DNA of 64,000 nt from Acidimicrobiales bacterium. Lineage in GTDB: Bacteria > Actinomycetota > Acidimicrobiia > Acidimicrobiales > Aldehydirespiratoraceae. A program made the position numbers and the translations under genes. The stretch is from contig JAQWLJ010000014.1 of NCBI GenBank assembly GCA_029247365.1, positions 1 to 64,000 of the forward strand, given 5' to 3'. The notes under the pieces are model-generated. The model was not told the DNA's origin. It did not search any database and saw only the letters and a program-made list of their open reading frames with translations. Below are positions 20,384 through 27,899 of the stretch, in pieces (the first letter of the stretch is position 1; the number at the start of each line of letters is the position of its first letter).

Positions 20384-21016
20384 TTAGTCGAGGGGTACAT
20401 CGGGCCCACCGCACGCGCTCCACAGCCTGATGCCGCCATCGACCGCAGCATCTTCGGCGTCCTCGAAGAGGTTGCGATAGTAGGAATTGGGCTCGTAGAT
20501 CAGCACGCCGGCAAAGCCGCGTTCGAGGAGATCGAGGTTCACGAAGAGTTGGTCCTGTGTGCGCACGACGTAGGCGAGCAGCCGGTCGTATCGATCGCGA
20601 GCCTGGACATCGCGAATGAGGGTGACTTCGGTGCCTTCGGGTAGGAGGCCGCGGAGATACTCCGACGATTCGGCGCCGTAGCACTGGTCGGGTCGGTTCT
20701 CGGCGACGGACTCAGGCGTGTCGATCCCGAGCAGACGGACGCGCCCGCGGGTGTTGTGGATCTCGACGATGATCGTGTCGCCGTCGACCACCCGCTCGAC
20801 GATGGCGTTCGGCTCGAGGTCGGCCTGGTCGGGTAGCGTCGCCGGCGGCGTCGGCGCTCCGTCGTTCCCGTCGTCGCCGGTGGAGGTGGGGGCGAGAGAG
20901 AGGGTGGCGGATGTGTCGTCGGTGCTGTTTGCGTCAGTTGCGGTGTCGGCGGACCCAGAGCATGCGGCGCTGAGAACCAGAAGGCTGGTCAGGAGGCGGA
21001 GGACAGCACGAGGCAC
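20384..21016 (-). CDS. Thermonuclease-like lipoprotein
   Basis: The 210-residue protein starts with a lipoprotein signal (LLVLSAAC, lipobox cysteine near residue 19) and a Ser/Thr/Asp-rich linker, then a staphylococcal-nuclease-like OB fold: VERVVDGDTIIVEI, RLLGIDTPE with the catalytic Arg-Asp type residues, and RDRYDRLLAYVV. It probably degrades extracellular nucleic acids at the cell surface. The start is GTG 21016. It is followed 9 nt later by the decayed deacetylase, likely in one transcript. Confidence 0.85.
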   Translation of the reverse strand: MPRAVLRLLTSLLVLSAACSGSADTATDANSTDDTSATLSLAPTSTGDDGNDGAPTPPATLPDQADLEPNAIVERVVDGDTIIVEIHNTRGRVRLLGIDTPESVAENRPDQCYGAESSEYLRGLLPEGTEVTLIRDVQARDRYDRLLAYVVRTQDQLFVNLDLLERGFAGVLIYEPNSYYRNLFEDAEDAAVDGGIRLWSACGGPDVPLD

Positions 21017-21028
21017 GGCCCGAGTGTG

Positions 21029-21208
21029 TCAGGCCGCTTCGGCTGTGACACCCGCAGACTCGGACTCGGTGGCCTCGGTGGCCCGCCTGGCATCGACCGC
21101 ACGCAGGACTGCACGGGCCTGGCGGACACCCTCAAGCCCCTGGGCACGGGTGGCCCGGTCGAGTCGCCACGCCGGGGTGGAGTCGATGAGGAGGAGCTGG
21201 TTCGTCAT
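21029..21208 (-). CDS. Small basic protein (59 residues)
   Basis: ATG 21208 opens a 60-codon frame ending at TGA 21029: MTNQLLLIDSTPAWRLDRAT, then a basic helix with LEGVRQARAVLRAVDARRA, then an acidic/Ala tail. Codon third positions are strongly G/C and the two halves look designed as helix plus tail. It lies 12 nt upstream of the nuclease gene on the same strand. The overlapping plus-strand frame is poorer in codon bias. No family was recognised. Confidence 0.6.
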   Translation of the reverse strand: MTNQLLLIDSTPAWRLDRATRAQGLEGVRQARAVLRAVDARRATEATESESAGVTAEAA

Positions 21209-21248
21209 GTTTCACATCATGCCGAGAGGGTGTGACACGATCCCTGCT

Positions 21249-22208
21249 ATGCAGCGCTACGGGATGACCGTTCCCTTCGACGGACAGCAACTCCACGCCC
21301 AAATCGACCGTTACAAGCGGCTCGAACAACTCGGCTACACCGATCTTTGGAGCGCTGAGGCGATGGGTGCCGACGGCTTGACCCCGTTGGCACTGGGTTC
21401 GGTATGGACCCCATCGATGCGGCTCGGTACCGCGATCCTGCCGGCGTACACCCGGGGCCCGGCCTTGATGGCTCAGAGCGTTGCCGCAATGGCGTCAGCC
21501 GCTCCTGGCCGGTTTGTGATCGGTCTCGGGTCGAGTAGCAACGTCATTGTTGAGCGTTGGAACGGAATCCCGTTCGAGAAGCCGTACCAGCAGACCCGCG
21601 ACATGGTTCGCTTCCTTAAGGCGGCTCTCACCGGTGACAAGGTCACCGAGGAGTACGAGAGCTTCACGATCAACGGATTCCGGCTTGGTCTTCTCCCTGA
21701 GCAGCCTGTCCCGATCCTCGTCGCCGCCCTTCGTGAGGGCATGTTGCGCATGGCCGGTCGCGAAAGTGACGGCGCGATCATCAACTGGCTGTCGGCCGAC
21801 AACGTCTCGACCGTCGCCGGCATTGTCAGGGAGGAAAACCCGAACGCAGAGGTCGTTGCCCGCCTGTTTGTCGCCCCCACGAGCGACGCTGAAACGGCGC
21901 GCAATATGGGCAAGTTTGCAGCTGCGGCGTATCTCAATGTCCCCGTATACAAGGCATTCCATGAGTGGATGGGCCGCACCGACGCGCTTGGCGAGCACTG
22001 GGAGCAGTGGGCAGCCGGTGATCGGAAGGGAGCGCTCGAGAAAATCCCCGACGAGGTAATCGACGAGCTGATCATTCATGGCAGCGCCGACGAGTGTCGC
22101 GCCCACATCCAGCGCTACATCGACAACGGTGTGACGTGCCCGGCGCTATCGATCCTGCCGTTTCCGGGTGTTGACGTCGACGAAGCTATCGAGGGCCTTG
22201 CCCCCTGA
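21249..22208 (+). CDS. LLM-class F420-dependent oxidoreductase
   Basis: The 319-residue luciferase-like monooxygenase-fold protein begins MTVPFDGQQLHAQIDRYKRL. It has WSAEAMGADGLTPLALGSVW and the flavin-binding GRFVIGLGSSSNVIVERWNG. The C-terminal part has ECRAHIQRYIDNGVTCPAL. This class usually uses coenzyme F420 in actinobacteria. ATG 21249 is chosen as the first codon that keeps the conserved N-terminus; earlier in-frame codons run into the small opposite-strand gene. The substrate is unknown. Confidence 0.88.
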   Translation: MQRYGMTVPFDGQQLHAQIDRYKRLEQLGYTDLWSAEAMGADGLTPLALGSVWTPSMRLGTAILPAYTRGPALMAQSVAAMASAAPGRFVIGLGSSSNVIVERWNGIPFEKPYQQTRDMVRFLKAALTGDKVTEEYESFTINGFRLGLLPEQPVPILVAALREGMLRMAGRESDGAIINWLSADNVSTVAGIVREENPNAEVVARLFVAPTSDAETARNMGKFAAAAYLNVPVYKAFHEWMGRTDALGEHWEQWAAGDRKGALEKIPDEVIDELIIHGSADECRAHIQRYIDNGVTCPALSILPFPGVDVDEAIEGLAP

Positions 22209-23274
22209 CCTCTCGAAGGTGATCGGTGAGGTCGGCGAGTTGTGCGTGAGCATTGAGGCCGCTGGTCGATGGCATCACATAGACGGCGGAGCCGCCGATA
22301 TCGCCCGGCTGCCATCCAGGTTTGGTGTGCCGGTCGACTGCGGCCCGCCATCCGCTGAGCCCCACGAAGCAGACAGCACGGGGCTTGAGCCATTCGCACA
22401 GCCACCTGACACGCTCAAGTCCCTGGCGGTACTCCTCGATGGTGAGTTCGTCTGCTCGGGGCGTGGCCCGCTTGACCAAGTCGGTCATGCCGACGCCGTG
22501 GTTGGTAAGTGCTGCTCGCGGGTCGCGGTCGATCGTCACCAAGCCAGCCGCGAGTGCGGCGGGCCAGAAGCGGTTGCCGGGCCGACCGAAGCCCACCCCC
22601 ACCTCGGCGGAGTACACGCTTGGGTTGAGCCCGCACACGAGCACGTCCATATCGGGACCGACAGTGTCGGGCAACGTGCGGGCCCGGCGCAGCGACATCT
22701 CGTAGTGTGGCCAGACCGCATGGTCCGATGTTTTCCATGCCTCGACGGTGAATCCGGCGCCGATGATCACGTGGCGCAGGTCGGATTCGGGCCAGTGGGA
22801 GTATTTGCGTGCGCCGAACGAGTCGTCACCTGTCGGCTCGAGGTCGAGGTCGCCACCGAACATTACGAGCTCGGCCGGTGCGTCGTGACCGAGTGCTCGA
22901 TGGAGTTCGGTCAACGCCATTGGCAGCTGGTGGCGCCCGATGTGGACATAGACCGAGGTGACCAGGGCCGCACCGATCGAACCGGTCTCGAACGGCAGTA
23001 ATCCGGCCTCGCCGCGAGCGCGAATCACACGGGGAGCTCGTTGTCCGAGGATTTTCAGGAACGCGTCAACAGGTTCGAGCCCAATCACCGGGTCGGGCAA
23101 GTGCTCGGTGAGATAGCCGGGACCGGCACCGACGTCGAGGAACGGCCCGGCCGGGTCGGGGCCGGCCCGGTCGACGAGACGACGGGCCGCGTCGACGTTC
23201 TTGCCTTTTCGAGCGGCCGTCCATGCCGCAGCGTGCTCTTCGTAGAGCGCTGCGGTGCCGGGATCGAGAGTCAC
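22186..23274 (-). CDS. SAM methyltransferase fused to Mug/TDG-type uracil-DNA glycosylase
   Basis: The 362-residue two-domain protein has a class I methyltransferase at about 1-205, with the SAM motif FLDVGAGPGYLTEHL, and the Mug/TDG fold at about 208-362. In the second domain, LVCGLNPSVYSAEVGVGFG supplies the GLNPS motif, PGNRFWPAALAAGL binds the flipped base, and PSTSGLNA is the intercalating loop. The GTG start at 23274 is preferred because it lies 6 nt after a TACGAT box (23281-23286 on the minus strand); a TTG at 23325 is the alternative. The 3' end overlaps the LLM gene by 23 nt (convergent). Confidence 0.85.
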   Translation of the reverse strand: MTLDPGTAALYEEHAAAWTAARKGKNVDAARRLVDRAGPDPAGPFLDVGAGPGYLTEHLPDPVIGLEPVDAFLKILGQRAPRVIRARGEAGLLPFETGSIGAALVTSVYVHIGRHQLPMALTELHRALGHDAPAELVMFGGDLDLEPTGDDSFGARKYSHWPESDLRHVIIGAGFTVEAWKTSDHAVWPHYEMSLRRARTLPDTVGPDMDVLVCGLNPSVYSAEVGVGFGRPGNRFWPAALAAGLVTIDRDPRAALTNHGVGMTDLVKRATPRADELTIEEYRQGLERVRWLCEWLKPRAVCFVGLSGWRAAVDRHTKPGWQPGDIGGSAVYVMPSTSGLNAHAQLADLTDHLREVRGQGPR

Positions 23275-23350
23275 GTTCGAATCGTAGGTCGTGCGGCTCG
23301 TTCGGTCTTTCGACCCGTCAGTCAACGATCGGCTGGTCTAGGCTACGTGC

Positions 23351-23539
23351 ATGACAGAAATGGCCGACACGGTCGCGCTCGACGAAGCGCTCTCGATGAT
23401 CGATCAGAATCTCGGCGACCTTCAGAATCGCGAGCTTGTCTCCGCCAGCGAGGTGGCTGACCTGCTGCTCGATCTCCGAATGCTGCTCACGATGTCGCCG
23501 GTCGATGTCTCCGTAGTCGAGGTTGCGACCGTCACCTGA
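23351..23539 (+). CDS. Small acidic protein of unknown function
   Basis: The 62-residue, mostly helical, acidic protein starts MTEMADTVALDEALSMIDQN and contains a likely amphipathic helix, ELVSASEVADLLLDLRMLL. ATG 23351 is 6 nt after a TAGGCT box (23339-23344), so leaderless transcription is likely. It is divergent to the methyltransferase-glycosylase gene (76 nt between starts). No family was recognised. Confidence 0.65.
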   Translation: MTEMADTVALDEALSMIDQNLGDLQNRELVSASEVADLLLDLRMLLTMSPVDVSVVEVATVT

Positions 23540-27233: not shown

Positions 27234-27899
27234 CTAGAAAAGCTTCAAGTTCGGGGACTCGATGCCCCGCAACTCGTCATAGTCGACCTCCACCCACGTC
27301 ATACCCCGGTCGGTGGCGAGCACCTTCGCCTGCGGCTTGATCTCCTGAGCGACGAAAACGCCCCGCACTGGCCGGAGGAGGGGGTCGCGATTCAGGAAGT
27401 CCAGATACCGCGTCAGCTGCTCGACCCCATCGATTTCCCCTCGGCGCTTGACCTCGACAGCAACCGCCGCACCCTCGGCATCGCGACACATCAGGTCGAC
27501 CGGTCCGATGTCGGTCGGGTACTCACGACGCACCAGCGTGAGACCGTCCTGAATCGAGGTGGGGTCGTCCGCCAGAAGTTCCTGGAGATGAGCTTCCACT
27601 CCATCCTTCTGAAGGCCGGGATCGAGCCCCATCTCGTGGGACGTGTCGCTCACAACATCGTCGAAGGTGATCGTAAGGACCTCACCTTTGGGGCTGGTAA
27701 CAGTCCACACACCAGCCTCGGGGTCTTCCTTGAGCCGATTGGGGGCGTTCATCCAGTTCAGCGGCTTGTAGGCACCACCGTCGGCATGCACGGCGACGCA
27801 GCCGTCGGCCTTCACCATCACGAGCCGGATGGCCGACGGCAGATGGGCTTGGAGACGACCGTCGTAGTCGACGGTGCAACGGGCCACGACCAAACGCAT
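27234..27899 (-). CDS. nucS: NucS endonuclease (mismatch repair)
   Basis: The 221-residue endonuclease has an N-terminal dimer domain and a nuclease domain with [17 protein letters not shown] and [17 protein letters not shown] (D135, E149 and K151 form a PD-(D/E)xK site). The protein ends LKLF, the clamp-binding tail typical of NucS. NucS cuts at mismatches and replaces MutS/MutL in many actinobacteria; no mutS or mutL lies in the window. ATG 27899 is 6 nt from a TAGGTT box (27906-27911 on the minus strand). Confidence 0.95.

Follow-up and report, generated by a model that had tools for sequence, protein, structure and literature searches.

A SAM methyltransferase fused to a Mug/TDG-type DNA glycosylase in Acidimicrobiales, with recurrent reduced forms of the methyltransferase domain

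Acidimicrobial genomes encode a single protein in which a SAM methyltransferase is fused to a DNA glycosylase of the Mug/TDG type. Comparison of its relatives indicates that, within the clade of Mug domains to which it belongs (hereafter the linked clade), the SAM-binding half of the methyltransferase and the active-site loop have been deleted repeatedly, which is the new finding here. We judge it somewhat probable (about 0.6) that the gene encodes this lineage's own Mug, carrying an accessory methyltransferase of a non-DNA type whose C-terminal half doubles as a scaffold. The Mug/TDG family thus gains a domain architecture with a marked evolutionary pattern: an intact methyltransferase shows strict conservation, but the half that binds the cofactor appears to have been removed time and again, and the remaining half retained.

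Results

One conserved frame encodes both domains

The gene lies on the minus strand of the window, the whole 64,000-nucleotide stretch of DNA that was analysed, and its product begins with a class I SAM methyltransferase and ends in a Mug/TDG glycosylase (Table 1). At its longest the open frame begins with a TTG at position 23325 and would specify 379 residues. The GTG codon in the table falls where the relatives begin, (M/V)(S/T)LDP..., and a length of 362 residues is therefore assigned. Pfam matches to Methyltransf_11 (5.8e-7) and to the UDG family PF03167 (1.5e-13) both exceed their gathering scores, and a profile made from 20 relatives spans the entire protein (E 4.6e-181). Similarly, sequence searches of the PDB match the C-terminal part to Mug (4.5e-17) and TDG (1.5e-13), and the N-terminal part to SAM-dependent methyltransferases.

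The fusion is real. The original prediction had described one open reading frame without a stop at 22186-23274 that joins a methyltransferase to a Mug/TDG-type glycosylase, and had named the motifs FLDVGAGPGYL, GLNPS, PGNRFWPA and PSTSGLNA, all of which are present in the protein. The frame is found at exactly those positions, and its reading as a fusion is borne out by the Pfam matches, the conserved frame and the structure prediction that had been suggested as a check: AlphaFold2, supplied with a 20-sequence alignment, returns two well-folded domains (pLDDT 92, pTM 0.91). A survey for the same fusion, likewise suggested there, shows that 67 or more non-redundant genomes in the order of the source genome carry the two-domain frame. 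According to the original prediction no well-described protein of this kind is known, and we found no published description of a methyltransferase-Mug fusion in open-access papers.

Because the frame is kept in 19 relatives at 47-83% identity, and because the methyltransferase is under purifying selection (dN/dS of 0.10-0.29 versus 0.09-0.27 for the Mug domain in 16 close pairs), the arrangement is neither a chance frame nor the product of a frameshift joining two neighbours. The same comparison indicates that, in full-length members, selection acts about as strongly on the methyltransferase as on the glycosylase.

Table 1. Position of the fusion gene, its domains and motifs, and nearby genes in the window.
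Feature	Position	Strand	Remarks
Fusion CDS	22186..23274	-	362 aa; GTG start 23274; stop 22186-22188; start conserved in relatives
N-terminal class I SAM methyltransferase, Methyltransf_11 type	22684..23274	-	residues 1-197; Pfam; closest solved folds 3e23, 3h2b
SAM-binding motif I DVGAGPG	23116..23136	-	residues 47-53
Methyltransferase C-terminal half kept in reduced relatives	22684..22938	-	residues 113-197; LPxxLAxLH ... GAGF
Mug/TDG-type glycosylase domain	22186..22683	-	residues 198-362 and stop; PF03167; 1mug Z 24.4; human TDG Z about 23
Mug motif 1 GLNPS	22618..22632	-	residues 215-219; contains Asn of GINPG motif
Asp265, at the EcMug Lys68 pocket position	22480..22482	-	D in 114/115 clade members
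Mug motif 2 MPSTSGLNA	22249..22275	-	residues 334-342; S-T replaces N-P in most of the clade
Luciferase-like monooxygenase	20718..22208	+	3' end overlaps fusion gene by 23 bases
62-aa ORF	23351..23538	+	divergent, beside fusion start; no Pfam match
NucS mismatch endonuclease	27237..27899	-	about 4 kb upstream, same orientation as fusion gene

The fusion is old and widespread within one group of actinobacteria

The protein was found in 61 genomes of the source family and order, with identities of up to 83%. Among 84,980 named species genomes that were scanned, 226 relatives came to light, of which the best 80 are described here. These 80 are all metagenome-assembled genomes, and their labels are nearly all Acidimicrobiia, Acidimicrobiales, Actinomycetes or Actinomycetota; a few read just 'bacterium', and one is Candidatus Microthrix parvicella. 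In 296 genomes sampled across the phylum, the linked type is confined to the order of the source genome, and the other actinobacteria give Mug-only matches of about 160 residues. A mobile or phage origin was considered and rejected: plasmids, phages and viral contigs yielded no fused copy, the viral contigs hold no relative, and the plasmid and phage matches are essentially Mug-only, with none covering 80% of the query.

The methyltransferase domain lacks the usual motifs of DNA base methyltransferases

The first half of the protein superposes on 3e23, a SAM complex, with a Z score of 25.3 (188 residues, rmsd 1.8) and on 3h2b with a Z score of 21.9; both entries contain a bound cofactor according to their titles. 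The domain has the two marks of a class I SAM methyltransferase, namely motif I (DxGxGxG) and an acidic residue after strand 2. Specifically, D47, G49, G51 and G53 are invariant in the full-length members in which the region is present (67-68 sequences), and the acidic position 67 is E or D in 69/69. Conservation extends to Y11 (66/66), H111 (70/70), R156 (70/71) and W161 (68/71). Together with the selection noted above, these residues suggest that the domain is probably maintained as a catalyst wherever it is intact.

Methylation of cytosine at C5 needs a cysteine, and amino-methylation of DNA bases a DPPY- or NPPY-like motif. Residues 1-197 contain no cysteine and no PP dipeptide, and thus neither the catalytic PC motif of a C5-cytosine methyltransferase nor the [DNS]PP[YF] motif IV of an N6-adenine or N4-cytosine methyltransferase, including its DPPY- and NPPY-like forms. 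Moreover, the C5-cytosine methylase family PF00145 is absent both from the protein's Pfam matches and from the genome as a whole, which is 98% complete. A DNA base methyltransferase was therefore rejected as an identity for this domain. The nearest named families are generic: the domain weakly resembles the DVU_1556 family, and its separate paralogues are also of BioC/UbiE type. Three such stand-alone methyltransferases that closely resemble the fused domain (L161:3714-4274, L162:3710-4507 and L163:2606-3685; bit scores of 127-160 against a model of the fused domain) occur in the same order with no Mug beside them, and their neighbours yielded no clues to a substrate.

The glycosylase belongs to a separate Mug clade

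The second half of the protein superposes on 1mug over 161 residues (Z 24.4, rmsd 2.1). Mug/TDG is the best match by fold, and the motif-1 asparagine of UDG family 2 is present in a motif that otherwise varies, with S in place of G. In a tree of 152 Mug domains the linked clade stands apart from the classical Mugs, including those of its own order (SH-aLRT 100). The motif-1 asparagine, N217, is found in 115/115 members of the linked clade and is invariant in classical Mugs as well, whereas several other positions separate the two groups. Ser219 (115/115) is replaced by Gly in 36 of the 37 classical Mugs, and Gly228 (101/115) by His in all 37. Where nearly every linked-clade member carries Asp265, the classical Mugs have Asn (37/37) and the E. 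coli enzyme has Lys68. Motif 2 reads N-P in 37/37 classical Mugs and mostly S-T in the linked clade. In E. coli Mug, Lys68 sits in the pocket and contacts uracil, and the actinobacterial Mugs compared in the same study have Asn at this position (PMC12001322). Asp93 of the Deinococcus Mug (2c2p/2c2q) was considered as a counterpart of Asp265, but their approximate positions did not match, and no conclusion is based on it.

The protein scores 82.7 bits against the NCBIfam Mug equivalog (G/U mismatch-specific, PRK10201), for which the cut-off is 144, and also falls below the cut-off of TIGR00584. We therefore file it as a family-2-like subfamily only, not as a Mug equivalog. Given these scores and the differences at Ser219, Gly228 and Asp265, its substrate may have shifted relative to that of classical Mugs.

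In a sample of 248 genomes of the order, the linked clade was found in 104, a classical Mug in 30 and both in 1 (of 133 genomes with either type), as counted by hand from the listed matches with only the best candidates per genome scored. This near-exclusion (Fisher p 6.6e-7, with genomes treated as independent of kinship) fits a history in which one Mug replaced the other, and in which the Mug role was therefore retained. Separate genes in close relatives had been named beforehand as an observation that would speak against the fusion. Stand-alone Mug genes are indeed present, both in some members of the order and in other parts of the phylum, yet they fall in a different Mug clade. The genome also carries two further UDG-superfamily genes, one of them weakly like family 4, and thus uracil repair need not depend on the fusion gene alone.

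Probable repeated loss of the SAM-binding half

Of 115 linked-clade entries in the tree, 71 have a full methyltransferase (a class that includes a few rows cut by contig ends), 38 have a remnant (four of these were first scored as having none and were moved by eye) and 6 have none, such that 44/115 are reduced. The remnant usually comprises the last 60-85 or so residues of the methyltransferase, and hhalign places the remnants on its columns 113-197 with a probability of 98.7% (E 2.9e-16). The remnants lack the SAM motif and the active-site loop G141-W161, and retain LPxxLAxLH and GAGF. A model of one remnant-plus-Mug protein (L174) is compact (pLDDT 93, pTM 0.91), with a strand, a helix, a strand, a helix and two strands preceding the Mug domain.

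Changes between full and reduced forms number 23 on the best tree, and well-supported branches force at least 6. The data reject one single loss (AU p = 0.00027, for a group that was defined by the trait instead of the tree). Sister pairs of a full and a reduced form even occur inside single families with support of 98-99 (L198/L226, L191/L104, and L231 with L192/L199). Change counts alone do not separate gain from loss. The remnant, however, corresponds by homology to the terminal part of a domain that is far older, and the direction would most simply be deletion of the SAM-binding half.

Two linked-clade Mugs that lack the methyltransferase (L172:2773-3663 and L180:1669-2601) are extended at the C terminus by about 120 residues, in which Pfam finds no match.

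The gene stands on its own

The fusion gene lies alone between the divergent 62-codon ORF and the convergent monooxygenase gene. Among the best 80 of the 226 relatives, a counterpart of the ORF (47-76% identity) lies upstream in 23, and the convergent monooxygenase arrangement recurs in about half. Searches by tblastn of flanks of up to 5 kb in the same 80 found the monooxygenase in 44, PAP2 in 36, a geranylgeranyl-reductase-like gene in 29, VanW in 23 and NucS in 11. Although PAP2, the geranylgeranyl-reductase-like gene, VanW and NucS are often syntenic upstream, a repair operon is not supported. It is possible that NucS, syntenic in at least 11 relatives, and the fusion form a loose cluster of two mismatch-related repair genes. 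Gene order shared by members of a single bacterial order says little about function.

Discussion

We propose that, in an acidimicrobial ancestor, a Mug became fused to a class I SAM methyltransferase that lay upstream and was of the small-molecule or RNA type. The Mug domain, judging from its fold and motif, most likely removes uracil and related bases opposite G, and the resulting abasic site would then be passed to ordinary base-excision repair. Where intact, the methyltransferase is probably active on a putative non-DNA acceptor. In many lineages the SAM-binding half and the active-site loop would then have been deleted while the rest of the gene stayed, a pattern that is plain in the tree and whose direction is the likelier one. 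The half that is kept (the LPxxLAxLH helix, a strand, the helix ending in GAGF and two strands) probably packs on Mug as a scaffold or contact surface, as its conservation and the confident models suggest. Because the SAM-binding half was repeatedly deleted while Mug stayed, methyltransferase activity appears dispensable for keeping the glycosylase. Methyl transfer is thus probably an accessory function that can be separated from base excision and is not one of its steps. In full-length lineages, however, where both domains are selected about equally, the two may be functionally linked.

Several other explanations must be weighed against this proposal. Two unrelated neighbours might have been fused through the loss of a stop codon and have persisted as independent enzymes that share only their expression. 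The separate methyltransferases of the same subfamily and the ease with which the SAM half is lost would both suit such a history, but 38 remnants compared with 6 complete losses point to a structural tie with Mug and leave it improbable. Slightly less credible is a regulatory role, in which the methyltransferase fold would bind SAM or SAH as a signal that tunes the glycosylase or its partner binding. Few residues of the N-terminal half are conserved as strictly as those that bind SAM, and the models point to domains held in a fixed arrangement (pTM 0.91); however, H111, R156 and W161, which lie beyond the SAM motif, are also kept, which suggests catalysis, and the reduced forms would be missing their sensor.

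If both domains are so strongly selected in full-length members of a conserved fusion, then might they not perform successive steps, with the methyltransferase acting on a substrate or product of Mug, be it a DNA base, a freed base or an abasic site? We consider this unlikely, in view of a domain that bears no DNA base methyltransferase signature, a genome that has no C5 methylase, and a SAM-binding half that is repeatedly lost while Mug stays. The suggestion made in the original prediction that base methylation is tied to excision fares poorly for the same reasons, the domain being of a Methyltransf_11/UbiE-like type, and coupled DNA methylation and excision are unlikely. Just as doubtful is a narrower version, in which lineages with an intact methyltransferase carry out a new coupled repair (excising a base, then methylating the abasic site, the freed base or another intermediate) that was later abandoned in reduced lineages. 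Finally, an artefact of frameshift, assembly chimerism or chance can practically be dismissed: a few relatives have internal stops or gaps, one of them (L224) with a run of N and a broken frame, but dozens of independent genomes share the same intact frame, and some of these are single-contig chromosomes (e.g. G015, G038, G485 and G547).

The accessory-methyltransferase proposal carries a caution, namely that 'methyltransferase plus glycosylase' should not be read as DNA demethylation or coupled methylation. The full, half and bare versions present in related genomes constitute a natural test of the role of the methyltransferase in base-excision repair.

Some bacteria join another methyl-handling domain to a DNA glycosylase, as in Ada-AlkA fusions. 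Ada transfers alkyl groups suicidally to its own cysteine, whereas AlkA belongs to the helix-hairpin-helix glycosylases; the protein described here has a Pfam match to neither. Its methyltransferase shares a whole-domain fold and SAM motifs with the Methyltransf_11 class I enzymes (RPA2492, 3e23; cg3271, 3h2b; and the DVU_1556 family). Whereas 3e23 and 3h2b are single-domain proteins of about 200 residues whose titles name no acceptor, the fused domain is linked to a glycosylase and often reduced. Human TDG, another family 2 enzyme, has in common with the fusion the Mug fold and a motif 2 with an MPS-S-type start. We know of no methyltransferase domain in TDG, and its role in 5-methylcytosine demethylation is not transferable because this genome is without PF00145 methylases. 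The Mugs of E. coli and of actinobacteria (UDG superfamily family 2; PRK10201/TIGR00584) share with the fusion the fold, the motif-1 Asn, the NRFW segment and the SGL of motif 2, and identity to 1mug is about 29% in the structural alignment. The fused Mug differs from them in forming its own clade, with GLNPS for GINPG, Asp for Lys68 or Asn, Gly at position 228 (where classical actinobacterial Mugs have His), ST for NP in motif 2 and scores below the NCBIfam cut-offs, and in carrying an N-terminal methyltransferase or its remnant.
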